Source: Terriglobia bacterium
Lineage (GTDB): Bacteria; Acidobacteriota; Terriglobia; Terriglobales; Acidobacteriaceae
NCBI GenBank assembly: GCA_020073665.1
Contig: JAIQEU010000006.1
Span: 124,001-188,000, forward strand
Direction: 5' to 3'
Length of the DNA stretch: 64,000 bases
Shown here: positions 4,731 to 43,231 of the stretch, in pieces
How positions within the stretch are numbered: position 1 is the first letter of the stretch
Layout: every line of letters begins with the position of its first letter
The notes under the pieces: generated by a model
Database searches by the model: none
Told to the model about the DNA's origin: nothing
What the model saw: the letters and a program-made list of their open reading frames with translations, nothing else
Made by a program: the position numbers and the translations under genes

Positions 4731-6374
4731 CTAGACTTTGTCCGAAGCGGACCGTGACCGGTCCAGCAGTGCCTGGGTCCCTTGCCACCATAGCCGGCCG
4801 CCATAGAACAGGGTACTGGATTGCACGGCAAACCAATCCTTGAGGGAAAGGGGTGACCCAAACGCTTTCCAACTGGTCAGCCAGCGTGGGGTGGCGTGGC
4901 GCGCGAGGATAGCGACCATGCTCACCTCCGGATCACCCATATCGTGCTGGACGCCATCCAGCGTGAACAGCACCTTGCGCAACATGATGAGCGGGGCGGG
5001 GAGACGGACCCCTTTGAAGGCAATGTCCTCCAACATGTCCAACGCATCCGCGGCTCCCGGTATGTGCGTGAGCGGCAGTTGGGCGATGAAGCGATCCACG
5101 CAATCACGAATGATTTTCGCCTGCGACCCCTTACGCCTGGCTCCGCCCCGGCTGAGCGCCTGGATTTGGTTAACGATGCCGTCCGGGTCGCGCAAGGCAG
5201 TCATAAAAAACAGCATGGCGAGATGGCGGCGCTCTTCACGGTTGACGTGTTCGGTCAGAGCCCAGTCGAGAATGGTGAGGTCTCCGGTCCGTTTGTCATA
5301 GAGCAGATTGCCGGCGTGGGGATCGGCGTGGAACATCGCATCTTTCTCGGATGAAAACAGAGGGACCGCCAGGAAGGCTTCGATCAGCAACTCGGAGACG
5401 CGGGTCCGCCGCCATCGAGGCATATGGGCAACCGCGTCCGTGACCTTCTTGCCACGCGCTTCCGTCATCGCGGTGATCTTGGAGGTACACAGCGGCTGGA
5501 TGAGACGAGGCACGCGGACACCGAGCACAGAGCCATAGAGGCGAGAGGCCTCCAGAAGCGTTGCCTGTTCTCGCGAAAACTGCACTTCGTGCTGGAGCAG
5601 TCGACGGACGTCGCTGAAGGTTTCGGGGAGGACCCGCTTCGCGAAGCCGTATTCGCGGTGTTCGAGCGCCACGTACTTGGCCAACCCCGCCAGCAGGTGC
5701 ATATCCTCGGCAAAACATGCGGGGATGTAAGGTTTCATGACCTTGAACACGCCGCGTTCCCGCCGCCGGGAGTCGGGGTTCCACCAGGTGAATCGCACCA
5801 CCGCGCTCACACTGGCTTCGAAGAAGATGCCGGGCTTGACTTGCACCGCGTGGGTTTCGAGCCGCTGTGCCAGTTCCTCCTGGATGATGGCGCGGACTTG
5901 ATCAGCGTTCATGTCGGAGATTCCGTTTTCCAACTCCGTGAGCGCGCGCCGCAAAGCCGGGAGCAGGTGTCGGTTACGGGCCAGCACCTGCCCGAGTTTC
6001 TGCAAACCCGGCACCTTCGCAATCAGCTTCAACAGGCGTTCCCCAGTCGGCGTGTTTGCCGGCAGTTCCATTTGTTCGACCAACTTGGGGGCCAGGCGTT
6101 CGATCGAAAGGTTCAGAAACATGAACAGCATGGCGTCCTGAACCAGCGGGCGCCAGTGGGTATATTTGTCCGGGACCAGTTCCTCTGCCGGCAGGCGCTG
6201 GATGACCCAGCGCCCGATCCGGTCGCGCAACAGCGGGCCCGCCGGACTGCGCAGCATCGTTTCGATCGCGCTGATTCTTTCCGATGAAGTTGGGTAGGCA
6301 GAGAAAAAAGTAGCCTGCAATTGTTCTGGCGTGAACTGCTGCAGGTCGCGTTCTTTCAGGGAGAAGTCGAACAT
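4731..6374 (-). CDS. ABC1/UbiB-family atypical kinase
   Basis: A 547-residue protein of usual UbiB/ABC1 length. The kinase-like core is visible as GVFKVMKPYI (nucleotide-binding lysine region), the long alpha insertion with HEVQFSREQATLLEASR, the catalytic-loop motif HADPHAGNLLYD and the metal-binding LTILDWAL. In quinone-linked relatives the N-terminal extension carries KxGQ; I do not see a clear KxGQ here, so this may be a divergent branch. No strong C-terminal membrane hairpin is apparent. It is the last gene of a four-gene operon, 33 bases after the response regulator, with GAGGG upstream. ABC1 proteins are ATP-dependent factors for ubiquinone or isoprenoid lipids; here the partners suggest a regulatory or stress function instead. 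Confidence 0.8.
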   Translation of the reverse strand: MFDFSLKERDLQQFTPEQLQATFFSAYPTSSERISAIETMLRSPAGPLLRDRIGRWVIQRLPAEELVPDKYTHWRPLVQDAMLFMFLNLSIERLAPKLVEQMELPANTPTGERLLKLIAKVPGLQKLGQVLARNRHLLPALRRALTELENGISDMNADQVRAIIQEELAQRLETHAVQVKPGIFFEASVSAVVRFTWWNPDSRRRERGVFKVMKPYIPACFAEDMHLLAGLAKYVALEHREYGFAKRVLPETFSDVRRLLQHEVQFSREQATLLEASRLYGSVLGVRVPRLIQPLCTSKITAMTEARGKKVTDAVAHMPRWRRTRVSELLIEAFLAVPLFSSEKDAMFHADPHAGNLLYDKRTGDLTILDWALTEHVNREERRHLAMLFFMTALRDPDGIVNQIQALSRGGARRKGSQAKIIRDCVDRFIAQLPLTHIPGAADALDMLEDIAFKGVRLPAPLIMLRKVLFTLDGVQHDMGDPEVSMVAILARHATPRWLTSWKAFGSPLSLKDWFAVQSSTLFYGGRLWWQGTQALLDRSRSASDKV

Positions 6375-6407
6375 CCCGAGCCCTCAGATTTGCACCCGGC
6401 CCCGGCG

Positions 6408-6773
6408 TTACTTCTTCGCGCTTTCCAGTTCGGCTTCAGACAGGCAGAGCCGAATCTTCTCCAGCAAGCTCGGGAACAGGAACTCTTTGGGAAGCCACAG
6501 CTTGACGTGTTCGCATTCGACCGGGGCGAACGCCGTCATCACGATTACCGGGAATCCCGGGTTCTTGTTGCGAAACGCCCGGGCCAGGTCCACTCCCGTC
6601 ATGCCCGGCATGGCGTGGTCGGTCACCAACAGGTCGAAATCTTCCTTCTCGAACGCTTCCAGAGCCTCCGCGACATTGGTCGCTGGCACGGCCCGGTAGC
6701 CTTCCATGCGCAGGATGTCGCAAGCCAACCGGCACAGCATTTCGTTAGCGTCAACAACCAAAATTCTCTTCAT
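6408..6773 (-). CDS. Receiver-only response regulator
   Basis: A 121-residue CheY-like receiver domain without an output domain. The phosphoacceptor is Asp in LLVTDHAMPGMTG (about residue 52), the conserved Thr lies in VIVMTAFAP, and a Lys follows in LPKEF. The acidic pocket reads LVVDANEM where most receivers have Asp-Asp, so one metal-binding acid is replaced by Ala; the nearby Glu may compensate. The ribosome site is AGGAACG. It starts 8 bases after the AAA+ ATPase stop, so the two are co-transcribed. No histidine kinase is in the window. Confidence 0.85.
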   Translation of the reverse strand: MKRILVVDANEMLCRLACDILRMEGYRAVPATNVAEALEAFEKEDFDLLVTDHAMPGMTGVDLARAFRNKNPGFPVIVMTAFAPVECEHVKLWLPKEFLFPSLLEKIRLCLSEAELESAKK

Positions 6774-6781
6774 GGACGTTC

Positions 6782-7882
6782 CTACTCAGCCGCCGACTCT
6801 GCATTCACAAGGGCTGGGGCTTTGCTGAAAGCCAAGCCCCCGCCGGGTTTCATGCGAATTTCTATGCAGTCGCCACTTGCGACCTGGCCGGTGGCGACCA
6901 GGTTGGCAAGCGCATAAACGAGATTGCGTTCGATGACGCGCTTCAGATGACGCGCACCGTACTTGGGGTCGGTGCCCTCCTTGAGCAACCAACTCTTGAC
7001 GTCCGGGGCGCAGCGGAAAGTGAAATGACTCTGGCCGACCGCGCGGGTGATCCGCTGCTGCACTTTGGTCAGTTCCAACTCCAGGATTTGTTCCAACTGC
7101 TCGGGCCGGAGCGTCTTGAAGACCACCACTTTGTCCAGACGGTTCATGAACTCGGGGGAGAACTTGCGGCGCGCCGCCTCGGTTGCCGTACGACTGATTT
7201 TCTCGTCCAGGCTGGCATCCACCTGCGGTTTCTGGGCAGCGAACCCCAGGCCGCCTTCCGCCAAACCACTCATTTCTGTGGCGCCGAGGTTCGAAGTCAT
7301 GAAGATCAGGCATTGCGAAAGGTCTACATGGCTGTTATCGCCCAGGGTGAGACTGGCTTTGTCGAGGATGCCCAACAGAAGCTGCCACAGGGCCTCTGAG
7401 GCTTTTTCCACCTCGTCGAACAACAGCAGCGTGAGTTTAAGCTTGTCGGTGTGCCACCGGCTCAGTGCTTCCTGGGTCAGCAGCGGCGGGGTGTGCATGT
7501 GCCCAATGTAACCAGGCGGGGAGCCGATCAGCTTGGAGATTTCGTGGTGTTCCTGAAATTCAGCGCAGTCGACCTTGATGAACGCGTGAGAATTTCCGAA
7601 CAGGGCTTCCGCGACCACTTCCACCACATAGGTTTTCCCCGACCCGGTGGGCCCCAGAAAGAGCAGGTTGCCCACGGGCCGGTCGGGTGGCGCCATCCCG
7701 ACAAGGAACATCTGGTAGAGCTCGGTGACTGCCTCGATGGCCGGTTCCTGGCCCACGATCTTGCTGCGCAGGAAAGCCTCAAATTCGCGGGTTGCCTCGC
7801 CATGGCGAGTGACGTCGAGTGCCGGGACGTCGGCTAATTCCCGGACAGAGGTACCCGCCGGCGACTTGATTTCGTCGGACAT
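6782..7882 (-). CDS. Single-ring ClpB/ClpA-type AAA+ ATPase
   Basis: A 366-residue AAA+ protein equal to the second ATPase ring of ClpB/ClpA plus the D2-small domain. Walker A is GPTGSGKT (about residues 79-86), Walker B is LLLFDEVEKA, sensor 1 is in FMTSNLGA, and the C-terminal domain carries KYGARHLKRVIERNL with the sensor-2 arginine. The pore loop shows GSPPGYIGH. There is no N-terminal substrate domain, no first ring and no ClpP-binding loop that I can identify, so it is more likely a remodelling ATPase than a protease subunit. It is second in the operon, 13 bases after the RsbRD-like gene. Confidence 0.85.
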   Translation of the reverse strand: MSDEIKSPAGTSVRELADVPALDVTRHGEATREFEAFLRSKIVGQEPAIEAVTELYQMFLVGMAPPDRPVGNLLFLGPTGSGKTYVVEVVAEALFGNSHAFIKVDCAEFQEHHEISKLIGSPPGYIGHMHTPPLLTQEALSRWHTDKLKLTLLLFDEVEKASEALWQLLLGILDKASLTLGDNSHVDLSQCLIFMTSNLGATEMSGLAEGGLGFAAQKPQVDASLDEKISRTATEAARRKFSPEFMNRLDKVVVFKTLRPEQLEQILELELTKVQQRITRAVGQSHFTFRCAPDVKSWLLKEGTDPKYGARHLKRVIERNLVYALANLVATGQVASGDCIEIRMKPGGGLAFSKAPALVNAESAAE

Positions 7883-7895
7883 GTCACCCTTTGTG

Positions 7896-8375
7896 TCACC
7901 TATGGGCCACAGTATGGATCCTGGGCACGTGCTCGGCTTCGCTTTGCCTTACGCTTTCGTATCCGATCGAGGCGAAGTACAAGATTCGATCAAAGAAATG
8001 TTCCAGGGAGTGCAGTAGGTCCAGTTCGCCGAATAGCTCCAACGGCTCCTCCAGCAGACCTTCTCTCTGCAGGAACTCCCAGAGATATTCTTTGGTGGCG
8101 CTGATCGCCCACAGGAAGGCGCTGAAGGGCACGCCCTGCCGAGCGCGTCGTATGCCGAGCCCGACGTAGCGCTCCTCGATTTCGGACTCGGTCTTGGTCA
8201 GCAGCCAATCGTTGAGGTTGCGATAGATCTCGTGGGTGCGTCGTACCAGCTCGTCGGCAGGCACCTTTTGCAGCAGCAGGCTGCACTGGTCCGAGCTTTT
8301 GAGTCGGTGCAGTAGCCCTTCGGATAATCTGTCGGCGTGGGTTTCGATGAGATTAACGAGCCTGACGGCAAACAT
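7896..8375 (-). CDS. RsbRD N-terminal-domain-like sensor protein
   Basis: A 159-residue all-helical protein, start set by AGGAGG just upstream of ATG at 8375. Features such as VNLIETHADRLSEGLLHRL at the N-terminus, DWLLTKTESEIEERYVGLG and the mid-protein RRARQGVPFSAFLWAISATK match the sensory N-terminal domain of RsbT co-antagonist proteins (RsbRD_N family). The usual C-terminal STAS domain is missing, so it is a stand-alone sensor module. It is the first gene of the operon with AAA+ ATPase, response regulator and ABC1 kinase. In known stressosomes such domains collect signals for partner-switching; here the output is unknown. Confidence 0.7.
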   Translation of the reverse strand: MFAVRLVNLIETHADRLSEGLLHRLKSSDQCSLLLQKVPADELVRRTHEIYRNLNDWLLTKTESEIEERYVGLGIRRARQGVPFSAFLWAISATKEYLWEFLQREGLLEEPLELFGELDLLHSLEHFFDRILYFASIGYESVRQSEAEHVPRIHTVAHR

Positions 8376-8574
8376 GGGTGCCTCCTGGCTGTTGGTACTG
8401 CGATTTGTTCTTAAGTACTCTGGTTCAGCCTCTAGCTTTATTTTCCGGCTCAAGCTCCCAACCCACAGTGACGGCCCGCACAGGCAGGAGTGACTGCCCG
8501 GCACCCGGGTAGGGAGCCTATGTCGGATCGAGTCCCTGCTTTCACCTTCTGTGGTTAATCACTCGCCAACGTGG

Positions 8575-10374
8575 CTAGGCAAGAACATACTTGCCGGCCT
8601 CGATCACCCTCTGTGCGATCTGCTGACGCAACGCCACGGTGTTGAATGGTTCGTGTTTGCCGAGACGACGTACGATCGCCATCTGCGAGCGCAACATGTC
8701 GCCCTCGCTGGCCGCCGCTACAACCCTTTTCGCGGCGCTCTCAATTCTCTCAATCGCGCCCGCCAGGTAGACCCGAGTCATGGCAATGGCAAGCCCCGAC
8801 TCGGATTCGCCGTTCCGAGATGCCAGCTTCTGGGCGCGCAAGACCGCCGATTCCATGGCGTAGGTCTCAATCACCATGTCCGCAATGGCGCCCATGATCT
8901 CCTGCTGATCCTGGATGGCCTGCATGTATTTCTGGGTGGCCACCCCGGCGGCGAACAACCCCATCTTCTTGGCACCGGCGACGAGTTTCCGTTCTTCCGT
9001 GAAGAACCCATCCCCGCCGTCGTCAACACTGGGACCGGACAGAACTTCGTCCATCAGCTTCTTGATCGCTGGCATCAGCGGCAGCTGCCCTGACATGGCA
9101 CGCTTCAGCAGAAAGCCGGTAATGACCAGCCGGTTGATCTCATTCGTGCCTTCGAAAATCCGGTTCACCCGGGAATCCCGGTAAGCAAGCTCGGCAGGGT
9201 ATTCTTCTACGAAGCCGTAGCCACCGTAGATTTGCACCATTTCGTCCACTACGTAGTCGATCAGCTCCGAGCCCCAGACCTTGAGGATGGAGCATTCAAT
9301 CGCGTACTCGTCGATGACCTTGCGCACTGCGCTCATGTCACCGGAGTGCGCATGTCCCAGGGCCGCAATCGCCGCATCCATCATGCCCACGGTGCGATAG
9401 GCCATGGCCTCGCCGGTGAAAATACCGACCGCCATGTTGGCCAGCTTCTCGCGAATCAATCCGAAATCGGCGATCACCTTGCCGAAGGCCTTGCGTTGCT
9501 TGGCGTAGGCGATAGAGCTCTCAAGGCAATGGCGGGCTGCGCCGACTGATCCTGCACCCAGCTTAAAGCGCCCGACGTTCAGCACATTGAAGGCAATGTG
9601 ATGTCCCTTGCCGATTTCCCCGAGAACATTTTCCACCGGCACCTTGCAGTCAGTCAGGATGAGTGGGCAAGTGGAAGACCCGCGAATGCCCATCTTGTGC
9701 TCTTCCGCTCCCACCGCAAACCCGGGGAAGTTGCGTTCGATCAGAAATGCGGTGAACTTCTCTCCGTTCACCTTGGCGAATACGGTGAACAGGTCGGCGA
9801 AGCCGCCGTTCGTGATCCACATTTTTTCGCCATTCAGGACGTAGTGTTTGCCATCCGCAGAAAGCTCAGCGCGAGTGCGGCAGTTGAGCGAATCGGAGGC
9901 TGAAGACGATTCCGAGAGGGCGTAGGCCCCGACCATTTGTCCCGACGCCAGCCCCGGCAGGTATTTCTTTTTTTGTTCTTCCGTGCCGAAATAAACAATG
10001 GGGAGCGTGCCGATACAGGTGTGGGCGCCCCAGGTGGCGCTGAAGCCGCCATACTTTGCCAGGTGGTCGGCAATGATCGCCGACGTGACCTTATCCATCT
10101 GCAGGCCGCCATAGGCTTCGGGAGTATCCACCGCGCTCAGGCCCAGGTCGCCAGCCTTCTTGACCAATTCGCGCAGCAGGGCAAAGTCCTTGTGCTCCAG
10201 TTTTTCGATATTGGGGACGATTTCGTTGATGGCGAATTCCTCGGCGGTTTGTGCGATGAGGTTGTGCTGCTCGGTGAAGTCTTCCGGGGTGAAGACGTTG
10301 TCCGGCGGGCAGGCTTCGATCAGGAAGCTGCCGCCAGAAATCTTCGCAGTAGGTACCGCTGTAACCGTGGCCAT
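8575..10374 (-). CDS. Acyl-CoA dehydrogenase, long form
   Basis: A 599-residue FAD-dependent acyl-CoA dehydrogenase for the first step of fatty-acid beta-oxidation. The N-terminal helical domain, the middle barrel (YALSESSSASDSLNCRTRA; KMWITNGGFADLFTVFAKV) and the C-terminal four-helix bundle ending in RIFEGTNEINRLVITGFLLK are in order, the last containing the usual catalytic-Glu region. About 170 further residues follow, as in the very-long-chain/ACAD9-like group, which suggests long-chain substrates and perhaps membrane contact. It starts 52 bases after the acyl-CoA ligase stop on the same strand, so activation and oxidation are probably co-expressed. Both lie next to phaR, linking fatty-acid breakdown to storage polymer. 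Confidence 0.9.
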   Translation of the reverse strand: MATVTAVPTAKISGGSFLIEACPPDNVFTPEDFTEQHNLIAQTAEEFAINEIVPNIEKLEHKDFALLRELVKKAGDLGLSAVDTPEAYGGLQMDKVTSAIIADHLAKYGGFSATWGAHTCIGTLPIVYFGTEEQKKKYLPGLASGQMVGAYALSESSSASDSLNCRTRAELSADGKHYVLNGEKMWITNGGFADLFTVFAKVNGEKFTAFLIERNFPGFAVGAEEHKMGIRGSSTCPLILTDCKVPVENVLGEIGKGHHIAFNVLNVGRFKLGAGSVGAARHCLESSIAYAKQRKAFGKVIADFGLIREKLANMAVGIFTGEAMAYRTVGMMDAAIAALGHAHSGDMSAVRKVIDEYAIECSILKVWGSELIDYVVDEMVQIYGGYGFVEEYPAELAYRDSRVNRIFEGTNEINRLVITGFLLKRAMSGQLPLMPAIKKLMDEVLSGPSVDDGGDGFFTEERKLVAGAKKMGLFAAGVATQKYMQAIQDQQEIMGAIADMVIETYAMESAVLRAQKLASRNGESESGLAIAMTRVYLAGAIERIESAAKRVVAAASEGDMLRSQMAIVRRLGKHEPFNTVALRQQIAQRVIEAGKYVLA

Positions 10375-25203: not shown

Positions 25204-28200
25204 ATGGAGACAAAGCTCCACAAGACGGTGCTGCTGCTGATCACCATCGCGGTCGTGGTTTCGACGCTAGGGACCACAACCGCGCGGTCAGAGACCTCGC
25301 AGGCAGCGGATGTTCTGCTGCTGCAATCGCAGGCTGAGGCCGACCGGAAATCCGCAGGTTGCGTGACCTGCCACACCTCCACCGACAGCGCCAGCATGCA
25401 CACCACCGGAACCGTGCGCCTAGGTTGTACGGATTGTCACGGTGGCAATAACGAGGTGCGCATCGCCGCCGGAACAGCGCAGAACTCTCCCGAATATCTG
25501 CAAGCCAAGAAGCAGGCACATCCTCAGCCGCGCCTGGCAGAGAACGCCAACTCCTCCGCCAATCCCGTGTGCATCTACACCGGCTGGCTCCGGGAAGACT
25601 GGGACTACGTGCGCTTTGTGAATCCGGGCGACTTGCGTGTGGCAGAGAAGACCTGTGGCTCCTCCGGATGCCACACCGCTGAAGTGCGCAAAGTCCAGAC
25701 CAGCATGATGACTCACGGTGCCATGCTCTGGGGTGCGGCGCTCTACAACAACGGCGCGTTTCCGCTAAAGTCCCCGCACTTTGGAGAAAGCTATGCTCCC
25801 GATGGCACGCCGCAGCGCCTGCTGACCTTCCCGCCTCCTACGACCGACGAAATCAGCAAGAAAGGTGTGTTGCCGTTTCTTGATCCGCTGGAGCGCTGGG
25901 AGATCTCGCAGCCGGGCAACGTGCTGCGCGTGTTTGAGCGGGGAGGCAGGAAGCGACCAGAGGTGGGCAACCCCGGCCTGGAAGAAGATCCAGGCAAGCC
26001 GGAAATCAAGCTAAGCGAACGCGGCTTTGGTACCGAGTTGCGTACCGACCCGGTGTTTCTCGGGTTACAGAAAACGCGCTTGCTTGATCCGCTGCTTTCT
26101 TTCCCAGGCACCAACGATCAACCCGGCGATTACCGTGCCAGTGGCTGCAGCGCGTGTCATGTGATTTACGCCAACGATCGCTCCTCGGAACACTCCAGTC
26201 AGTTCGCCCCGTACGGCAACCTGGGCCAGAGCGCAACCCAGGATCCCACCATTCCGCATGATCAATCGGGCCACCCCATTCGCCACCAGTTCACACGCTC
26301 GATCCCGTCGAGCCAGTGCATGGTGTGCCATATCCATCCCGGCACGAACATGGTGGCTACGTACTTCGGCTACACGTGGTGGGACAACGAAATGGATGGC
26401 GAGCACCTGTGGCCAGCAGAGCAGCGCCATCCGAGCGCTGAGGCACAGAGCGAAATTCAAGCTCGCAATCCCGAGCGCTCCTCCATTCGCGGGCGCTGGT
26501 CTGATCTCGACTTCCTGGAGAAAACTGGCACGCCTGACTTCAACCAGCAACTCCAGCACACCCAGTTAGCCGATTTCCATAGCCATGGCTGGATCTTCCG
26601 CGCGGTCTTCAAGCACGACCGCAAAGGCAACCTGCTGGATGCGGACGGCCATCCGGTCGCTTTCGAGGATCCCGAAAAATTCAAGAAGGCTGTACACCTT
26701 AAGGACATCCATCTCGAGAAGGGCATGCATTGCATCGATTGCCATTTCGAGCAGGACAGTCATGGCAACGGCAAGCTCTACGGAGAAACGCGCAACGCGG
26801 TCGAGATCGATTGTGTGGACTGTCACGGAACTATCGAGCAACGCGCCAACCTGATTTCTTCGGGCATGGCCGCACCCTCTGGCGGTACCGACCTGGCTCG
26901 CCTGCGCACACCATGGAAGGCGCGCCGCTTCTACTGGAGAGACGGACGGCTCTACCAGCGTTCCATGCTCAACGAAAATCAGGAGTGGGAAGTGGTGCAA
27001 GTGTTGGACACGATCACCCCCGGCCAGCCTCACTACAACGAAAAATCACGCCTGGCGAAGACCATCCAACAGGATGGACAAACCTGGGGAGACGCGCCGC
27101 ACGATGAATCCAAGCTGGCCCATCAGAACAGCCGCATGACCTGCTATACCTGCCACTCTTCGTGGGCGCCCACCTGCTACGGTTGCCATCTCTCCATGAC
27201 TGCCAACCAGCGCACTCCCATGCTGCACAACGAGGGTCTGACCACGCGGAACTGGACCTCTTACAACTTCCAGGTTCTCCGCGACGACATGTACGCGCTG
27301 GGGATCGATGGCACAGTTACTGGGCATCGCGTTGCCCCAGTGCGATCCGCCTGCGCCGTGCTGGTCAGTTCGCAGAACGCCGACCGCGAATGGATTTACT
27401 ACCAGCAGCAGACCATTTCGGCTGAGGGATTTAGCGGCCAGGCCTTCAGCACCTTCGTGCCGCACACAGTTCGCGCGAAGGAGACCAAAAGCTGTACGGA
27501 TTGCCACGTCTCACGCGCCAATGACAACAACGCCTGGATGGCGCAACTGTTGCTGCAAGGCGCGAATTTCATGAACTTCATGGGCCGCTACATCTTCGTG
27601 GCCGATGGCAAGCACGGATACGAAGCCGTCGCAGTGACTGAGCATGATGAGCCGCCGGTGGTCATCGGCAGTGACTTCCAGAAGATTGCCTACCCCGATG
27701 ACTACAAGGCACACCTGGAGAATCACCAGGAGTTGAAAGAAGCTCACCGGCACGCCGGTTCGGAGGTTCTCGACGTCCAGGCCCGGGGTGAATATCTGTA
27801 CGCAGCAATGGGCAAAGGCGGCCTGCGTATCTTCGACATCGCAAATATCGACAACAAAGATATCTCCGAGCGAATGGTCACCGCGCCGGTTTCACCGCTG
27901 GGCCAGCGCTTCTATCTGCCGACCAGGTACGCAACAGCAGTTGCGACGCCGACCACCTTGGGTGTCGATCCGCTTCGCTCGCATCGCAAAGAGAACGAAG
28001 AGCAGCCGATCCACCTGATGTATGGGTTCCTCTACGTGGCCGATAAGTACGAAGGCTTGGTGATCGTGGGTGACCCCAATCTCAAGAGCAAAAGCCCGGG
28101 CGTGGGGACGCTGCTGGATGGCAATCCGGCGAACAATTTCCTCAAGCGTGCAATGGCATTCAATCCCAACGGCATTTTGAACGGTGCGCGACGCATCACC

Positions 28201-28962
28201 ATCGCCGGCACCTACGCGTATGTCCTCTGCGATCGAGGCCTGGTCGTGGTTGATTTGAATAACCCGCTGCAGCCTAAAGTCACGGCCGAGATTGGTGCAC
28301 CTTTCCTGAATACCCCAAGGGGAATCGCGGTGCAGTTTCGATACGCATTCGTGGTAGACCGCGAAGGCCTGAAGGTGCTGGACGTGACTCACCTCGACCA
28401 GCCGAAACCCGTACCTGACGCTGTAGTCGCCCTCGAGGATGCCCGCAACCTTTACGTGGCCCGCAGCTACGCCTACATTGCTGCCGGGAAGCAGGGACTT
28501 GCCATCGTGGATGTTGAGCATCCTGAAAGCCCGAAGCTGGACCAGGTATTTAACGCGAACGGCGCGATGAATGACGCAAATGACGTCAAGCTGGGAATGG
28601 TCAGTTCGAGTCTGTTCGCCTACGTCGCCGATGGGAAGAATGGCTTGCGGGTTGTGCAACTATTCTCGCCGTCAGATGATCCGGCATTCGGTGGCTTCAG
28701 CCCCAGGCCCATGCCCAAGCTGATTGCTGGCTATCGCACGCAGGGACCAGCACTGGCCATCTCCAAAGGGATCGACCGCGATCGCGCGGTCGACGAAAGC
28801 GGAAATCAACTTGCTGTGTTCGGACGGCGGGGTGCCCGTCCATTCAATCGCCAGGAAACGGAACGCCTCTACTTGCGGGATGGCAAGTTATTCACGGTGA
28901 CGGACGAGCCACCCGGTGCGCCGCGAGGAAGTGAAAAGCAAGCAGCAAGCGATCCTCGCTGA
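25204..28962 (+). CDS. Ten-heme cytochrome c fused to LVIVD-type propeller
   Basis: A 1252-residue exported protein (signal peptide [20 protein letters not shown]). Residues about 50-790 contain nine CxxCH motifs (CVTCH, CTDCH, CSACH, CMVCH, CIDCH, CVDCH, CYTCH, CYGCH, CTDCH) and one CxxxCH (CGSSGCH), giving ten probable c-type hemes. The last about 400 residues are LVIVD-like repeats ([54 protein letters not shown]) that fold as a beta-propeller. The protein is large enough to reach across or sit on the outer membrane. It follows the beta-barrel gene by 17 bases, so the two are co-expressed, and converges with the second ten-heme gene. Confidence 0.88.
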
Positions 28963-28971
28963 AAGGGCCGC

Positions 28972-30339
28972 CTAGTTTTTCGGCATCCTCAGCCGCGCGG
29001 TTCCTCGTAGCTCGGGAATGCTGAACCGCCCTTTCGTCCGCTTGGCCTTGCTCCAGTCGTGATACTGGTGGCATTCGAAGCAACGTCCTTCTGCGGACTC
29101 TTTCATCGGCCCTTGCTCGCGATGGCACTGCTGGCAGATCTGGATGCTGGGCACCAGGATGTCAGCGGTGTCGCGACTGTTGGGGGCACGCGTGTGGCAC
29201 GCCGTGCAAGCCATCGCCCGATGGGCCTGGTGATCGAACTCAGCATGCGGAAGCCAGCGGGCGGTGATGCTGGATTTCGCGACTTCGGGGAGCGGGCCGC
29301 CGGTAAAGTTAAGGGTATGACACTGCTTACACGTCTTGAGCCATAGCAAGTGTTCGGCGTCTTCCACGCGGAACTCTACCCATTCAGAAGCGTTGCGCGC
29401 GACCCGAGGAATGCGGGCGCGCTCCGGCAACTCGCGATTCGAAGCTTCTACTTCGTGGACCGCCGCAGGATGTGCAGCGATATATTCTCCAAACTGCTTA
29501 ATTAGGAACGCATGAACGACTTCGGGCTTGTCATGCGGGACCTGCGCATTGCCAAACCGATTATCGAACTGGAGCGTGTGACAGGCGGCGCAGTGCCAGG
29601 CGAAGGCTGGAGGCACCATGGGCGCCTTCGATCCTCGCTGGTTCAGGTCTTGCGATGTCAGCTTCAAGGCCGCAGAATGCAGTTCGGTTGACGCATATGG
29701 CCACGTCTCACCGCTTCCAGTCGCACGATGGCAGTCATCGCAGCTCATTTCCACCCGCGTGTTGTTGGGACCCATCAAGTTGGGCTGCAAATGGACGTAG
29801 TGATTGAGCTTAATCCGCCCAGGATCCGTCCTGCCCGGTGCCAGCACCGAGAACTCAGGATGCTGGCGATCAAATCCGCCGATGGAGGCCGCGTAATGTG
29901 GCTGCCCGTCGCGTGTACGGAGGTTGGCATGACATTGCATGCAGCTGGCATCGGAAGTGGCGGCTAGGCGTATCGCTCCCTGGTGTTCCACGTGACAGGA
30001 AGAACACTGAGGAGTGAAGGTCTGCTCGGGTTGATGTACTGGTGCATCGTGGCAGGTGAGGCAAGCCTGGTCGCTTACATGCGCAAAGAATGCGCCAGTG
30101 CGGGCCACGTGGCAGAGGCCGCATTGCTGCGTAAACACCGCATGCGAATGCGCCAGCGGGCCGCTGGAGTAGGCCTTTTGTCCACCCTCGGCACGTTGCC
30201 CGACTACCCAGCCCAATGCAATCAACGGAACACCTACCGATAGCCACAAACGCCAGCGACGAAACGGATGCGGACGCGCGAAGTACTGCAAGTCAATTCG
30301 CTTGGCTAGTGTCTTGGTCGTTCGCGTGCGTTGCGACAT
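28972..30339 (-). CDS. Membrane-anchored ten-heme cytochrome c
   Basis: A 455-residue protein with one uncleaved N-terminal TM (LWLSVGVPLIALGWVVG, about 32-48), then a periplasmic domain with ten CxxCH motifs (CGLCH, CLTCH, CSSCH, CMQCH, CDDCH, CAACH, CKQCH, CTACH, CQQCH, CFECH). The arrangement resembles quinol-linked NapC/NrfH-type anchors only in having a single TM; the heme number is much higher. It is last in a four-gene operon, 9 bases after the membrane protein gene, and so probably receives electrons from that protein and passes them into the periplasm. AGGA precedes ATG. Confidence 0.88.
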   Translation of the reverse strand: MSQRTRTTKTLAKRIDLQYFARPHPFRRWRLWLSVGVPLIALGWVVGQRAEGGQKAYSSGPLAHSHAVFTQQCGLCHVARTGAFFAHVSDQACLTCHDAPVHQPEQTFTPQCSSCHVEHQGAIRLAATSDASCMQCHANLRTRDGQPHYAASIGGFDRQHPEFSVLAPGRTDPGRIKLNHYVHLQPNLMGPNNTRVEMSCDDCHRATGSGETWPYASTELHSAALKLTSQDLNQRGSKAPMVPPAFAWHCAACHTLQFDNRFGNAQVPHDKPEVVHAFLIKQFGEYIAAHPAAVHEVEASNRELPERARIPRVARNASEWVEFRVEDAEHLLWLKTCKQCHTLNFTGGPLPEVAKSSITARWLPHAEFDHQAHRAMACTACHTRAPNSRDTADILVPSIQICQQCHREQGPMKESAEGRCFECHQYHDWSKAKRTKGRFSIPELRGTARLRMPKN

Positions 30340-30348
30340 CGCTTTGTC

Positions 30349-31269
30349 CTAGAACCTGATCGCCACTACGGCATGCCATGCGCCCAGAAGCAACACCGCA
30401 TACGACAACGGAATGTGCACCAGCAGCCACCCATGCAGGATTCGGTGAAGCCGGTTCTGCTTGTCCAGTTGGCGCTTTTCAAGGCAAATGTTTTCCAGAT
30501 CGTCCACTTGCGAATGCAGGTTCGGCGGAAGCAGCACTCGCAAGTGCCGGAACATGGCTTGCGCCTGTGCCGCAGTGCCCAGTCGAACCCCACGCGGACC
30601 CGCCTTTTCCAGATACGGCAGCATTTCGGTGAGCAGGAATTGCCGCAATTCGTTGCTGGTGGGCTCGTCGGCTTGCAAGCCGGAAGCCACGGTTACATCC
30701 CAGTTGGCTCCTGCTGACGCAGCCACCGCTCGTTGCCGTTCGCTGGCGCCGGAAACCTCGCCTTCAAGTGTGGCGCAGCATTGGTCCACCAGCCGAGTGG
30801 CTTCTTGCGCCAGTTGGCCTCGCACCCGATCGATCTGTTCATAGATCGTTTCCATGGGGAGCTGTGCGGTGTGAATCCGTGGAATGAAATGCTGAAGCGC
30901 CGCTCCCAGCAGTCCACTAGCGAACACGAAGACGAAAAGCCACATCAGCACACGCGTGAGTTGCGTGCCAAAGTGAAATCCGCCGTGGAACAGGATCAGC
31001 GGAAAACTCACCAACCCAAGCCACAAGTGGCCTCGCATCCAGGTCTGAGCGCGCCCCACACGCCAAACGGGAAACTTCTTCCGCAAACCAAGCAGCCCGG
31101 CGAACAACATGAACGCGAAGCCCACGCTGCCGTAAATCAATCCCAGGACGCTGCTGCCCTTGGGCCCCTGCGGAGAGTTCAGGCTGTACGGCACGTACAC
31201 CACAGTCGCAAGCGCGAGTCCCACGACGCTGCCCAGGAACCACTTGCGGTGTGTCTGGTCAATCAGCAA
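30349..31269 (-). CDS. Multi-His membrane protein, probable b-type cytochrome
   Basis: A 306-residue protein from a TTG start, 6 bases after the preceding stop. Three or four TMs are in the first 125 residues (FLGSVVGLALATVVYVPYSL; VLGLIYGSVGFAFMLFAGLL; LWLGLVSFPLILFHGGFHFG; VLMWLFVFVFASGLLGAALQ), a helical extramembrane domain covers about 125-265, and a last TM ends the protein (LLVHIPLSYAVLLLGAWHAV). Histidines in or at TM helices (RGHLWLG, LFHGGFHFG, LHRILHGWLLVH, AWHAV) could bind two b hemes as in cytochrome b561 or ferric reductases. It would link the cytoplasmic iron-sulfur proteins to the periplasmic ten-heme cytochrome. Heme binding is inferred. Confidence 0.65.
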   Translation of the reverse strand: MLIDQTHRKWFLGSVVGLALATVVYVPYSLNSPQGPKGSSVLGLIYGSVGFAFMLFAGLLGLRKKFPVWRVGRAQTWMRGHLWLGLVSFPLILFHGGFHFGTQLTRVLMWLFVFVFASGLLGAALQHFIPRIHTAQLPMETIYEQIDRVRGQLAQEATRLVDQCCATLEGEVSGASERQRAVAASAGANWDVTVASGLQADEPTSNELRQFLLTEMLPYLEKAGPRGVRLGTAAQAQAMFRHLRVLLPPNLHSQVDDLENICLEKRQLDKQNRLHRILHGWLLVHIPLSYAVLLLGAWHAVVAIRF

Positions 31270-31275
31270 AGTGCG

Positions 31276-33441
31276 TCAACTCCTGTTCAACGGGCTGGAC
31301 TGCTTCAGCAATCCCGCAAAAAACTCGGGAGGATTCACCCGGTGTGCGGCGTCATGCGGGCACGCGTAAACACAGCTCGGCTCGGCGTGGTCGTGGCATA
31401 GGTCGCACGAGGTGGCTTTGACGCGCGTCCCTGCGATCATTCTTCCGGGATGGTCCGGGTCATCCAGTTCGACCGGGAACGGGTGCAGGTTGATGTTTCC
31501 GTACGGACAGTTGTTGGCACAGAGGCCACACCCGATACACCAATCTTCAATAATGACTTCCAGCGTGTTGCGCCGCCGAATGGACCCTACCGGGCACCCA
31601 ACCATGCACAGCGGGTCGCGGCACTGGCGGCAGGAAGTTGCCACCAAGTACTTGTCGAAACGCAAGCCTTCGCGCACCAGGCGGCTGACGCCATCGTGCG
31701 CGTCAGCGCAGGCGCGAACGCACTGGTCGCAGCGGGTGCAACGATCCAGATCGAGCACCAGCAGGCTCTGGGCTTCCATCAGGCCGTTGGCGAGGAACTG
31801 GTCCACTGGGAGGTTCTGAATCTGGGTGATGCGCCGGCGGTTTTCTTCGAGGCGCTCGTGTGCAACTTTTTCCAGGCTGGCACGGACCTCAGGGAAGCGT
31901 TCGAGCATGAGCTCAAAATCTTCCCGCAGGATACGTACGACCTCCACGTGGTCGAGGGCAGTGCAGGTCGCTGTACGCGGACTGCCACTCAACAACGCGA
32001 TCTCACCGAAGTATCCGCCGCGTGCCAGGTATGCCAGGATCAGATCACCGCCCGGCCGCTCCTCCGACACTTTTACAAAGCCGATGCGAATCAAGTAGAA
32101 GCTGTCGGCGGGCTCGCCTTGACGGCAGATCACCTGGCCAGGGCTGAAGCGAACCAACTCCACACGGTCCCGCAGATGGTCGATAAAGTTCTTGGTCAGG
32201 GAAGCGAAGATCGGAACACTGCGCAGGTGCGAATCGAGGGCGCGGGTCCGGTAGGTGCGCTCCAGTTGGGCGCGGAAGGTTTTGTTGCGCTGCAGAATGT
32301 CGAGCACATTGCGCAGCATCTCGAGCATCACGCCATCGGTTTTGGCCCGAACCGTGGCCGATCGCGGATAGTAGCTCATGCAGGTCATTTCGCCGAACAG
32401 GTCGCCGGGGCCGAGTTCGGCAATGGGGCTGTCGTAGGGAAGGTCCACGCTGGCATCAATGGGGATGAACGGCCGGTTGGACTCCTCGCTGCGGGAGTGC
32501 TGCTGGCGTGGCGCCAGCATGCTTTTCAGACGGCTGAAAAAGCCCTTGCTGCTGCCTTCGGTCCTGACGTGGGCCATGGGACTCGAAAGGAAGACTTCGG
32601 CCTTGCCCTCCAGGATGTAGAAAGCTGTAGATCCAAATTCGCCTTCGCGGCAGATGATGTCGCCCGCGCGGTAGTGTCGCTTCACCACCGCCTTCTGGTT
32701 GAGTTCGAGGAAGGTTCCCGAAACATTCTGGAAGATCGGCAGGTGCAACAACTCCGTGGGATCCAGGACGTCGCCCTGACCCAACTCTGTGCCGACCACA
32801 CGCTTGTTGGTCAGCGCGCCGGTGGGACAGGAGACCATGCACTCGCCGCAGGAAACGCACGACGACTCCGCCATTGGCAGGTTGTTGTCGAAGGCCACGC
32901 CGGCCTGGTATCCCTTGCCGCGACGCGCCAGCACCCAGTTGTGGCGAATGTCATCGCAGCCGCGAATGCAGCGGTCGCACAGGATACAGGACTCGTGATC
33001 GACTGCAATGACCGCGGAAGAGTCGTCTTTTCCTCGTGGAGTGGCGCGGCGAGGGAAGCGAGGTTGACCGATGGCCGCAGCCTCGGCCAGACGCTCCAGT
33101 TCGCAATCTCCGGAGTGCTGTTGGCGCGCGCAGGGCGCCGGGTGGTCCGACATCAGCAACTCGATTAAGGTGTGACGTGCCGCTTGCACTTGCTCGGTGC
33201 TGGTCTTCACCGTCATTCCCGGTTCTACCTGGCGGATGCAAGAGGCGGCATAAACTCGCTGCCCTACATCCACTACGCATACGCGGCAGACGCCGACGGG
33301 ATTCTCATTTTGCTGGTGGCAAAGGGTTGGTATGGGGATGCCGTTGATCCGTGCAGCATCGAAGATTGTCGTGCCCGCGGGTACGGAGACGGGCCTGCCG
33401 TCTATCGTGAGTTGAATCTCGGGCGCGGGCTTGGAACTCAT
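31276..33441 (-). CDS. NuoG-N / double cNMP-binding / HybA-like Fe-S fusion
   Basis: A 721-residue cytoplasmic iron-sulfur protein. Residues 1-80 are a 2Fe-2S domain (C41, C52, C55, C68). An HPAPC...GDC motif like the NuoG/HoxU His-Cys cluster follows near 100-115, then two 4Fe-4S motifs (CILCDRCIRGC; CVSCGECMVSCP) at about 150-205. Next come two cyclic-nucleotide-binding domains (about 230-410 and 425-540), with FGEMTCMSYYPRSATV and FGEIALLSGSPRTATC. The C-terminus is a four-cluster ferredoxin like HybA/DmsB (CTRCDQCVRAC, CRQCRDPLCMVGCP, CIGCGLCANNCP, CDLCHDHAEPSC). The start codon overlaps the NuoEF stop by 4 bases (ATGA), showing translational coupling. The protein can take electrons from NuoEF and hand them to the membrane protein, with cNMP as a possible gate. 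Confidence 0.9.
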   Translation of the reverse strand: MSSKPAPEIQLTIDGRPVSVPAGTTIFDAARINGIPIPTLCHQQNENPVGVCRVCVVDVGQRVYAASCIRQVEPGMTVKTSTEQVQAARHTLIELLMSDHPAPCARQQHSGDCELERLAEAAAIGQPRFPRRATPRGKDDSSAVIAVDHESCILCDRCIRGCDDIRHNWVLARRGKGYQAGVAFDNNLPMAESSCVSCGECMVSCPTGALTNKRVVGTELGQGDVLDPTELLHLPIFQNVSGTFLELNQKAVVKRHYRAGDIICREGEFGSTAFYILEGKAEVFLSSPMAHVRTEGSSKGFFSRLKSMLAPRQQHSRSEESNRPFIPIDASVDLPYDSPIAELGPGDLFGEMTCMSYYPRSATVRAKTDGVMLEMLRNVLDILQRNKTFRAQLERTYRTRALDSHLRSVPIFASLTKNFIDHLRDRVELVRFSPGQVICRQGEPADSFYLIRIGFVKVSEERPGGDLILAYLARGGYFGEIALLSGSPRTATCTALDHVEVVRILREDFELMLERFPEVRASLEKVAHERLEENRRRITQIQNLPVDQFLANGLMEAQSLLVLDLDRCTRCDQCVRACADAHDGVSRLVREGLRFDKYLVATSCRQCRDPLCMVGCPVGSIRRRNTLEVIIEDWCIGCGLCANNCPYGNINLHPFPVELDDPDHPGRMIAGTRVKATSCDLCHDHAEPSCVYACPHDAAHRVNPPEFFAGLLKQSSPLNRS

Positions 33442-35105
33442 GCCGCTCCCCGCTTCGGAAAGCAGACGCCCGCAGAACATCGTCGCTGTGTGATGTGCTC
33501 TTCCACAACCGCAGGGAAGTGCTTCAGAACGGAAAGAATGGGCACCGGAACTACCTGCCCCAACCCGCAGATCGAAGTCAGCTTCATGGCGGTCGAGAGT
33601 TCATCGATCAACTGCAAATCGGTGCTGGAAGCCTGGCCCTGGGTCCATCCGGTAAGCATCTCCACCATCTTCTGCGAGCCCATGCGACAGGGAACGCACT
33701 TGCCGCAGGATTCATTGCGATAAAAGCGCACCGCATTGAGTGCCATGTCGAGCATGCAGCGGCCTGCGGCGCACACCACGATGGCGCCAGAGCCAACCAT
33801 CGAACCAGCCGCAGCCACCGCATTCCAGTCGAGCGTAAGATCCGCCATGGACGCGGGCAGGTATCCCGACGAGGGTCCCGAAGGTGCGAAGGCCAGAAGT
33901 TCGCGGTTGTCCAGAACACCACCTGCGCACTCGTAGATCAGCTCCGAGTACGGGGTCCCCATGGGAACCTCGAAGACTCCAGGGTGCTGCACGTCTCCAC
34001 TGATGCCCACGAACTTCATGCCGGTGGAGCCATTCTTGCCCTGCGTTTTGAACCAGTCGCCACCCCGCGCCAGGATCGCGGTGGCGAAAGTAAACGTCTC
34101 CACGTTGTTGATGACCGTAGGCTGGTTCCAGAGTCCGTTGGTGCCGGGGAAGGGAGGCTTGTTGCGCGGCTCAGCACGCTTGCCTTCGATGGCCTCAAGC
34201 AGCGCGCTTTCTTCGCCGCAGATGTAGCCTCCGGGGCTGATAAAAATTTCCAGGTCAAACGCCAAGTCGCTCCCCAGAATGTGCGGTCCCAGTAGTCCTT
34301 CGCGATAACAGCGGTCGATCTCCTGCTGCAGGATTTCCTTCGGCTCCTCGTACTCATGGCGAATGTAAAGAATGCCCTGGCGTGCGCCGGTGACCAGTCC
34401 GGCCGTGATCATGCCCTCGATCACCAGGTAGGGAACGGTTTCCATAATGAAGCGGTCTTTGATGGTGCCGGGTTCGCTCTCGTCGGCGTTGCAGACGATA
34501 TATTTCTCTTTTCCCGGAGCATTGCGAACGATCTCCCACTTGTTGCCGGTGGGGAAGCCGGCGCCACCCATGCCGCGCAAACCGCTCGCCTTAAGTACAG
34601 CGATGATCCCGCTCCAGTCACGAGTTTCCACGAATCGGCGAACCACCGAGTAATTCGGCGATCCAGCGTAGGGATCGGAGGCAACTGGAGCCCTTGGGTG
34701 ATCACGGGGCTCAGCGGGAAGCGGGTGTCCGGAGAGCACATCGCGGACCTTGGACAAGGAACTGGGCGCATCCAGGCCGCAGTAGATGTGGTCGTTGATA
34801 GCGAGCGCGGGAGCACTGTCGCATCGCCCCAGGCATGACACCTGGCGGATGGAAACGTCTTCATTCCCGCGGAAAGCCTGCTCCAGATTCGTCTTCAGTT
34901 CCTGGCCGCCGCGCAAGTGGCAACTCATGTCGGCGCAAACTCTCACCTCGGCCCGAGCCGGCTGGGTCAAATAGAAATGTGGATAGAAACTGGCAACGCT
35001 GTGGATGCGGCTGAGCGGCAGGCCGAGCTTGGCCGCCAGTTGCTGTAGTTGATCAGCCGGCAAGTACCCGAATTGCCGCTGGATCGCCCTGAGTTCTTCG
35101 AACAA
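33438..35105 (-). CDS. NuoE-NuoF fusion (NADH-oxidising diaphorase subunit)
   Basis: A 555-residue fusion. Residues 1-about 120 are NuoE/HoxE-like with the thioredoxin-fold 2Fe-2S cysteines in VCADMSCHLRGG and VSCLGRCDSAP. The rest is NuoF/HoxF-like: FMN/NADH-binding GLRGMGGAGFPTGNKWE, NADESEPGTIKDRFIME, PGGYICGEESALLEAIEGKR, and the 4Fe-4S ligands ESCGKCVPCRMGSQ plus SICGLGQ. It should oxidise NADH and pass electrons one at a time to the downstream iron-sulfur protein. The start is TTG at 35105, directly after an in-frame stop, with GAGG upstream. No membrane arm of complex I is nearby, so it feeds another acceptor. It is the first gene of the four-gene operon. Confidence 0.93.
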   Translation of the reverse strand: MFEELRAIQRQFGYLPADQLQQLAAKLGLPLSRIHSVASFYPHFYLTQPARAEVRVCADMSCHLRGGQELKTNLEQAFRGNEDVSIRQVSCLGRCDSAPALAINDHIYCGLDAPSSLSKVRDVLSGHPLPAEPRDHPRAPVASDPYAGSPNYSVVRRFVETRDWSGIIAVLKASGLRGMGGAGFPTGNKWEIVRNAPGKEKYIVCNADESEPGTIKDRFIMETVPYLVIEGMITAGLVTGARQGILYIRHEYEEPKEILQQEIDRCYREGLLGPHILGSDLAFDLEIFISPGGYICGEESALLEAIEGKRAEPRNKPPFPGTNGLWNQPTVINNVETFTFATAILARGGDWFKTQGKNGSTGMKFVGISGDVQHPGVFEVPMGTPYSELIYECAGGVLDNRELLAFAPSGPSSGYLPASMADLTLDWNAVAAAGSMVGSGAIVVCAAGRCMLDMALNAVRFYRNESCGKCVPCRMGSQKMVEMLTGWTQGQASSTDLQLIDELSTAMKLTSICGLGQVVPVPILSVLKHFPAVVEEHITQRRCSAGVCFPKRGAA

Positions 35106-42142: not shown

Positions 42143-43231
42143 CTACTTGCCTTGAATTCTCGAGACAAAGAGCTGCAAGAAGCGGTCGGCTTGCACGTCC
42201 ACACAAACTTTTGCGTTGGGGACGACTGGGTCGAGTTCCTCGATAACGTACCGATCCCCTTGCAGAACGTTGCGTTCGACAAAGCCATGCCGGTTGGCAA
42301 CAGTTTCGCCGCGAGTGAACTCGCCACGGGTCTCGACATCCACGTGCATGGCGGGCGCGGTCACCAGCGTTGCATCAATGGCAACTCCGACGGCCAGAGG
42401 ATCGTACATCGGAGAACCTGAAGATCCGTACTTCTCCGACAGCTCCACCAGATACTTCACCACCAAGTAGATAAAGTCATTGACCGGCCCATGGGTGCGG
42501 CCGAGTTCGGCTAGCTGCTTGCGGGAAATAAGCGTCTTGTCGCCGACGTCGAGCCCCACCATGGTCAGCGGCCAACCCGCCTGGAACACGATCTGCGCAG
42601 CCTCGGGATCGTTATAAATGTTGGCTTCCGCGGCCGCGTTGACGTTGCCGCCAGAAATCGAGCCTCCCATCAGGATGACTTCCTTCACCAGCGGGACGAT
42701 AGAAGGATCTTTCAGCACCGCGAGCGCGATGTTGGTGAGCGGGCCGACCGGAACCAGCGTGATTTCGTGTGGCGCGGCATGCACCATCTGGATAATCAGG
42801 TCGGGGCCATAGCGAGAATCCACCTTGCACTTGCTGGGTGGTAGCTCGACGTTGGCCAAGCCGTTCTTGCCATGCCAGAATTCGGCTGTGATCAGCTTCT
42901 GAAAAAGCGGGTGCTGCGCGCCGGCAGCCACCGGTATATCACAACGGTTCGCGAGCGAAACCATGCGCAGCGCATTCTCCAGCCCTTGCTGCGCAGTCAC
43001 ATTTCCCGGCACTACGGTGATGGCCCGTACATCGAGCTCAGGAGAGTTGAGCGCTAGCATCAACGCCATGGCGTCATCGCTACCGGGGTCGGTGTCAAGA
43101 ATGATCTTTCGGGTGGAAGCCAGTGCGGGCAAGGCAAGCGCGGCCGCCAGACAAATCAGCAGGCCGCCTAGCCGACACCAGCACCGCACAGTGCGGAGGC
43201 GATGGCAAGAATGTCTCAGTGACAGGCTCAT
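42143..43231 (-). CDS. Exported nucleoside hydrolase, canonical motif
   Basis: A 362-residue member of the inosine/uridine-preferring nucleoside hydrolase family. It has a signal peptide (LGGLLICLAAALALPALAS) followed by the classic calcium/ribose motif KIILDTDPGSDDAMALMLAL. The later GPLTNIAL, MGGSISGGNVNAAAEANIYN (with the ribose-binding Asn) and MYDPLAVGVAIDATLV (calcium Asp) are all present, so it should be active. Release of free base and ribose in the periplasm is the expected reaction. The gene leads a two-gene unit with the transporter. Confidence 0.9.
   Translation of the reverse strand: MSLSLRHSCHRLRTVRCWCRLGGLLICLAAALALPALASTRKIILDTDPGSDDAMALMLALNSPELDVRAITVVPGNVTAQQGLENALRMVSLANRCDIPVAAGAQHPLFQKLITAEFWHGKNGLANVELPPSKCKVDSRYGPDLIIQMVHAAPHEITLVPVGPLTNIALAVLKDPSIVPLVKEVILMGGSISGGNVNAAAEANIYNDPEAAQIVFQAGWPLTMVGLDVGDKTLISRKQLAELGRTHGPVNDFIYLVVKYLVELSEKYGSSGSPMYDPLAVGVAIDATLVTAPAMHVDVETRGEFTRGETVANRHGFVERNVLQGDRYVIEELDPVVPNAKVCVDVQADRFLQLFVSRIQGK

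Follow-up and report, generated by a model that had tools for sequence, protein, structure and literature searches.

Four genes lie on the reverse strand between nt. 4731 and 8375 of the Terriglobia bacterium DNA analyzed here (64,000 nucleotides of contig JAIQEU010000006.1, hereafter the window), encoding a small protein (SML), a single-ring unfoldase of the Clp/Hsp100 type (AAA), a single-domain receiver (REC), and an ABC1/UbiB-family atypical kinase (ABC1). The question this locus raises is which of the four belong together. The preliminary description of this DNA took the four, spaced by 8–33 bases, for an operon that may form one module. The spacing itself is borne out (four open reading frames, 13, 8, and 33 bases apart), but a conserved four-gene module is not, as a neighborhood check found the complete set only in the window. 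What is conserved is a smaller unit, AAA-REC with an optional SML, from which ABC1 is absent.

We propose that AAA-REC is a ClpP-directed unfoldase together with an adaptor that, in most members, no longer depends on phosphorylation, a reading for and against which we see about equal chances. Our computations show the pairing of the genes, the family of the predicted fold, the motif in the loop, the lost phospho-acceptor aspartate, purifying selection, and an empty site in a relative, and the mechanism we place upon them would run as follows. The real unit comprises two or three genes, (SML-)AAA-REC, and in the window genome this cassette lies between the acyl-CoA dehydrogenase and ABC1 genes of a polyhydroxyalkanoate (PHA)/lipid cluster. 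The AAA ring would probably dock on the ClpP of the cell through its LGF loop, and REC, a former phospho-switch, would now be (or be becoming) a constitutive adaptor or activator that binds the AAA ring, perhaps via its α4-β5-α5 side. SML, where present, would act as a globin-fold ligand sensor that feeds in a signal or a substrate, possibly a lipid. As AAA has no substrate-choosing domain, a dedicated partner is to be expected, and REC is put forward in this role because it is the sole candidate common to all nine loci of the AAA subfamily. A wider proposal, in which a one-ring, N-domain-less unfoldase, a gene-linked pseudo-receiver that chooses substrates and derives from an ordinary phospho-receiver, and an optional globin-fold third subunit form a separate class of Clp partners, is possible, though we lean against it. 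If true, these readings would add a minimal architecture to the known Clp unfoldases and would catch a response regulator in the act of becoming a permanent part of a proteolytic machine. No description of an AAA-REC type pair was found among the titles and abstract openings listed from the open-licence literature.

Conservation of the AAA-REC Pair

The AAA subfamily, defined as matches at E ≤ 1e-160 when 398 genomes of the family were searched, is present in nine genomes including that of the window (G000; 5.4 Mb, 62 contigs). Named records with the same subfamily are seven metagenome-assembled genomes, six of them Terriglobia bacterium and one Candidatus Sulfotelmatobacter. REC lies directly 3′ of AAA in all nine loci, at gaps of 8, 9, 9, 9, and 8 bases or with a 4-base overlap (G592, G484, G644, and G580; the REC start of G580 was trimmed to an internal ATG, the untrimmed spacing being −208). 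SML lies directly 5′ of AAA in four of the nine (window, G290, G472, and G451), whereas ABC1 adjoins the pair only in the window, where alone SML-AAA-REC-ABC1 is complete (one of nine AAA-subfamily loci; one of the 26 ABC1 loci read). Elsewhere, the neighbors of AAA-REC include genes for a transketolase, a decarboxylase, an M1 peptidase, and protein kinases. The AAA proteins of AAA-REC members form a single clade with 100/100 support, as do their RECs. Outside the window, none of the 30 SML loci read (first sample of 61 genomes) had AAA, REC, or ABC1 within the stretch read.

The pair occupies the same genomic site in G290 and G472. In G644 and G446, a Ser/Thr protein kinase gene lies 3′ of AAA-REC (L152:3907-5415 and L154:2650-5136), and the two kinases share 42% identity. 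We considered a recent horizontal acquisition of the cassette and set it aside: identity between the AAA proteins of the window and G290 is 85%, and the values for three other genes compared between these two genomes lie on either side of this (75, 79, and 91%), so that vertical descent with relocation is enough. In G472, the only locus scanned for transposases, an IS1595-type transposase gene lies upstream of SML at a distance of ~1.35 kb, and no repeats of at least 14 bases that might mark an insertion were found at nt. 6200–8800 of the window.

ABC1 and the Empty Site

ABC1 (nt. 4731–6374, reverse strand, 547 a.a) was correctly named as an ABC1 kinase, with a match to PF03109 of 86 bits (cut-off 22.9); against the UbiB equivalog model it scores 117.7 bits, below the cut-off of 487.55. 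The PHA/lipid neighborhood noted earlier is likewise present. Upstream of the four genes lie those for an acyl-CoA dehydrogenase, an AMP-ligase, and a PhaR-type regulator (PF07879), and downstream those for a phasin-like protein (so labeled from one below-cut-off match, PF09712, E 0.0057) and a hydrolase. Across the 398 genomes, ABC1 gave 53 matches (E ≤ 1e-90) in 50 genomes, and 26 loci were read, several ending at contig ends. Within 7 kb of ABC1, these 26 loci contain the hydrolase in 15 cases, the phasin-like protein in 13, and PhaR in 12, while SML, AAA, or REC is near ABC1 in the window alone. Nor did SML, AAA, or REC adjoin any of the five other close homologues of ABC1 in the 61 genomes sampled first (those of G010, G026, G032, and G015, plus the second ABC1 copy of G000).

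The genome G451 carries the same gene order as the window (PhaR, AMP-ligase, acyl-CoA dehydrogenase, ABC1, W3659, phasin-like protein, hydrolase, W358), with PhaR inverted, and its ABC1 is 82% identical to that of the window. In place of the window stretch that holds SML-AAA-REC and its flanks (nt. 6384–8574, reverse strand), G451 has only 89 bp between the match blocks of the dehydrogenase and of ABC1, and the SML-AAA-REC of that genome sits on a different contig from its PHA/lipid cluster. Given this empty site and a cassette elsewhere, the best account of the four-gene run in the window is that a cassette has come to lie next to an ABC1 gene already in residence. ABC1 belongs with the PHA/lipid genes resident there and not with the cassette, beside which it looks like a chance neighbor. 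To assign an ABC1 kinase to the AAA-REC system from one genome is unwarranted.

The alternative first suggested, a four-protein module for stress signaling and remodeling that includes ABC1 and an RsbR-like sensor, draws on the tight spacing of all four window genes, on the placement of SML in the RsbR/HisK_N globin superfamily, and on the presence of ABC1 in eight of nine AAA-REC genomes vs. 50 of 398 overall. Relatedness confounds this last figure, and we have not used the co-occurrence as evidence because its holders fall mostly in genera where ABC1 is common. With ABC1 adjoining one of nine AAA-REC loci, AAA-REC adjoining one of 26 ABC1 loci, an empty site in G451, and no STAS domain found in the four proteins, such a module is largely refuted by gene neighborhood, and we regard it as highly improbable. 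Of the functions proposed for it, protein remodeling is supported, sharpened in the direction of ClpP-linked proteolysis, and RsbR-type stress signaling is not, there being no STAS or RsbT-like kinase domain in any of the four proteins.

A separate observation concerns the second ABC1 copy of the window genome. It lies in a stretch (G000:C50:1-11321, L043) that is 99.3% identical at the DNA level to a stretch of G290 (contig C5, L268) over 11.3 kb, and the two ABC1 proteins are identical (544/544 a.a), three other genes of the two genomes being 75–91% identical. This near-identity reflects either a misbinned contig or recent transfer.

The AAA Unfoldase

AAA (nt. 6782–7882, reverse strand, 366 a.a) consists of a D2-type module with one AAA_2 domain (116.8 bits) and one ClpB_D2-small domain (63 bits), both above their Pfam cut-offs, and an N-terminal extension of about 30 a.a. 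No N-domain, D1, or M-domain was found, judging by Pfam and length, so the earlier description as a single-ring AAA+ protein without an N-domain stands. Its motifs comprise a Walker A (GPTGSGKT), a Walker B (LLLFDEVEKA), a pore loop (PPGYIG), and a sensor 2 (YGARHLKR), and between sensor 1 and the PEFxNR box lies a ClpP-type loop, GGLGF. According to published work (PMC10149685), the LGF loop docks ClpC on ClpP, ClpB is described as being without such loops, and the loop is used as a marker. In our alignment, the LGF of AAA falls in the same columns as the KSLGF of the ClpX and the EGLGF of the ClpC-type protein of the same genome, whose ClpB has no LGF-like loop in the stretch aligned with AAA. 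The loop takes the form L/M/I-G-F in all nine AAA-REC members and in 27 of 34 members of the wider family, and a ClpP gene adjoins clpX on contig C2 of the window genome. On these grounds, AAA likely docks on ClpP via the LGF loop.

The comparison proteins of the window genome were named by NCBIfam for ClpB (1375 bits, TIGR03346 cut-off 1232) and ClpX (640 bits, cut-off 359); the second double-ring protein is called ClpC-type because of its length and LGF loop. AAA itself falls below the cut-offs of both models, with 231 bits for ClpB and 37 bits for ClpX. It resembles ClpC (with ClpI) in having the LGF loop at the same place of a D2-type module (PMC10149685) but differs in its one ring, the missing N-, D1, and M-domains, and its short N-terminal extension. 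Like ClpX, it is a single ring with an LGF-type loop in the same alignment column but is without the zinc-binding N-domain. Overall, its D2 module is closest in sequence to that of ClpB, and to this extent the label ClpB-like is apt; however, ClpB has two rings with N- and M-domains, and the GGLGF loop of AAA is without counterpart in the ClpB of its own genome.

The resemblance to ClpB raises the alternative that AAA is a ClpP-independent remodeling chaperone or disaggregase, with REC as a structural or targeting subunit, which we consider rather unlikely. It is in keeping with this alternative that AAA is most similar to ClpB and that in the wider family 7 of 34 proteins have just -GF in place of L/M/I-G-F; however, the full motif is kept in every AAA-REC member, where it aligns with the loops of ClpX and the ClpC-type protein, and AAA lacks a detectable M-domain, the part of ClpB that binds Hsp70 according to PMC4023160.

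The preferred reading of a ClpP-directed unfoldase with a dedicated receiver also has to bear the wider-family departures from the motif, and several further points weigh against it. The whole-sequence score of AAA is 231 bits for ClpB vs. 214 bits for ClpA, ClpB chains top its list of PDB matches (E 5.1e-57), and the double-ring ClpC-type protein used for comparison passes neither the ClpB nor the ClpA cut-off of NCBIfam. Of 32 loci with the commoner AAA paralogues, 31 are without any receiver nearby and one has an unrelated receiver 6 kb off. The nine genomes are related, as seen in the shared site of G290 and G472 and the kinase of G644 and G446, so that the AAA-REC pairing does not amount to nine independent events. 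Lastly, the REC of the window retains its phospho-acceptor residue, D52.

The wider single-module AAA family is found at E ≤ 1e-55 in 276 of 399 class genomes, although the weakest of these matches may be ClpB or ClpC. Its receiver-less paralogues indicate a motor able to work without a receiver. Among the 32 wider-family loci (L106-L118, L122-L140), whose neighbor families were identified by Pfam on own-genome members only, one gene family lies 3′ of AAA in 12 (an M48 peptidase in the window genome) and a divergent gene family lies upstream in 18 (LysM/DUF4015 in the window genome, contig C27). At five of these loci, outside the window's family (L111, L112, L115, L117, and L139), a different protein of ~150 a.a is encoded 5′ of AAA, and the two that were scanned are Pfam-negative; the motor may thus have small partners that can be swapped.

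The Receiver

REC (nt. 6408–6773, reverse strand, 121 a.a) matches Response_reg (PF00072) with 64.4 bits (cut-off 30.2) and has a conserved EHVKLWLPKEFLFP stretch. In the window protein, D52, T80, and the Lys of LPK are kept and the acidic pair is incomplete (D8-A9), this Ala being unique to the window member among the nine linked RECs. Position 52 is Asp in three linked members (window, G290, and G472), Asn in three (including G446), Ala in two (including G592), and Ser in one, i.e., the phospho-acceptor has been lost in six of nine. The earlier label of an output-less response regulator thus fits the domain content, but the phospho-site it implies is not conserved among the linked RECs.

A REC search matched 40 of the 398 genomes at E ≤ 1e-28, nine with AAA-linked RECs and 31 others, of which 21 were read. 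None of these 21 sister receivers has an AAA within the stretch examined (up to about 1.5 kb each side), and all 21 possess the phospho-acceptor Asp and the acidic pair. Linked and sister receivers form separate clades (100/100). At this threshold, none of the 40 genomes gave two matches, with only 11 candidates scored per genome; as the expected overlap is <1, mutual exclusion of solo and linked RECs does not follow. For four pairs of Asp-less RECs, dN/dS was 0.15, 0.12, 0.10, and 0.06, and for three pairs with an Asp-bearing member it was 0.09–0.19; one further pair yielded no dS. The Asp-less RECs are therefore under purifying selection, which argues that a role besides phosphorylation maintains them. 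Of the 13 clade-specific REC changes, 5 fall in positions 83–110 (α4-β5-α5), 1 in 51–82, and 7 in the first 50, a spread that does not demonstrate a concentration on the α4-β5-α5 side. Together, the linked RECs provide a natural series (Asp, or Asn/Ala/Ser) for studying the passage from a phospho-receiver to a constitutive adaptor.

ClpX uses adaptors, and RssB is a receiver that acts as an unfoldase adaptor. Another is CpdR, a single-domain receiver that serves as a ClpXP adaptor when unphosphorylated, as stated in PMC8973945. REC is likewise a stand-alone receiver proposed to prime an unfoldase, and its score against CpdR (55 bits, cut-off 180) reflects no more than the resemblance among receivers at large; unlike CpdR, it is gene-linked to its unfoldase and has mostly lost the Asp. 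With this precedent, and with D52 and T80 in the window REC and D52 in those of G290 and G472, REC could be a true response regulator through which an unlinked histidine kinase toggles the unfoldase. We judge this improbable, however, given the loss of the Asp in six of nine linked members, the purifying selection on Asp-less pairs, and the Ala at position 9 of the acidic pair in the window REC.

When 30 loci of the sister receivers (L218-L238) were clustered, 17 had a YdjC-like neighbor gene (one member checked by Pfam) and 12 a neighbor that looks glycosyltransferase-like by eye.

The Small Protein SML

SML (nt. 7896–8375, reverse strand, 159 a.a) has an ATG start with AGGAGG upstream; a longer GTG-start frame to nt. 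8504 is also in the open reading frame list. It had been described as an RsbRD-like sensor, for which we found support in the predicted fold and in weak matches at the level of the family, but not in the window protein itself, which matched no Pfam or NCBIfam family at E ≤ 1, nor in a STAS domain, absent by Pfam from all four proteins. PF14361 (RsbRD_N) had no match in the window genome. We aligned the window SML with 27 of 33 relatives, six being omitted for unclear starts or distance; at E ≤ 0.1, 13 of these 28 members matched HisK_N and 12 matched RsbRD_N. Searched against the PDB, the family profile matched pXO2-61 (E 3.5e-5) and, weakly, pXO1-118 (E 0.41) and RsbR (2bnl, E 0.59).

A structural model from four sequences (pLDDT 80.8, pTM 0.75) replaced a single-sequence model (pLDDT 53.6). 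Its closest structural matches were pXO1-118 (Z 16.1, rmsd 2.4, 145 residues) and pXO2-61 (Z 15.2, rmsd 2.2), followed by heme globin sensors and phycobiliproteins from Z 14.4 down, although helical models can reach a Z of about 14 with this aligner without a clear match. Foldseek gave nothing at E ≤ 0.001 (best 0.014). RsbR (2bnl) was not among the top 50 structural matches listed, which is no evidence against kinship. Based on the fold match and the independent profile match to pXO2-61, SML is predicted to be a stand-alone, all-helical, non-heme globin-fold sensor of the RsbRD_N/HisK_N kind, nearest to pXO1-118/pXO2-61. A heme globin was considered and is unsupported, with no invariant or nearly invariant His among the 28 members.

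SML shares with pXO1-118/pXO2-61 a stand-alone domain of the same predicted fold but is only 11–14% identical to them and occurs in another organism with other partners. It would share the non-heme globin superfamily with the RsbRD/RsbR N-domain but lacks the associated STAS domain. The N-domain of MabR is a further non-heme globin sensor near RsbR and pXO1-118, according to PMC11617747.

Of the 29 solo SML loci used (out of 30 read), 7 have SML 5′ of an acetyl-CoA hydrolase/transferase-like gene and 6 have it 3′ of a SecA-like gene (families were drawn by mutual similarity, with Pfam run on two of the seven and one of the six). From these neighbors and the PHA/lipid setting in the window, we guess that the SML ligand is a lipid or acyl-CoA; pXO1-118/pXO2-61 reportedly bind fatty acids.

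Other Features of the Window

A promoter and terminator scan was uninformative, with one promoter-like and six terminator-like sites vs. 0.9 and 4.3 expected by chance. An anti-phage role was considered and dropped, as PADLOC gave partial matches to AAA and the receiver only and none to SML or ABC1. Elsewhere in the window, CxxCH-rich proteins adjoin an iron-sulphur protein with apparent cyclic-nucleotide-binding repeats (nt. 25,204–33,480, by eye). Three similar nucleoside-hydrolase-like proteins with signal-like N-termini are encoded at nt. 42,143–43,231, 48,718–49,839, and 62,222–63,301, and near them lie ribokinase-like and permease-like genes (all by eye).

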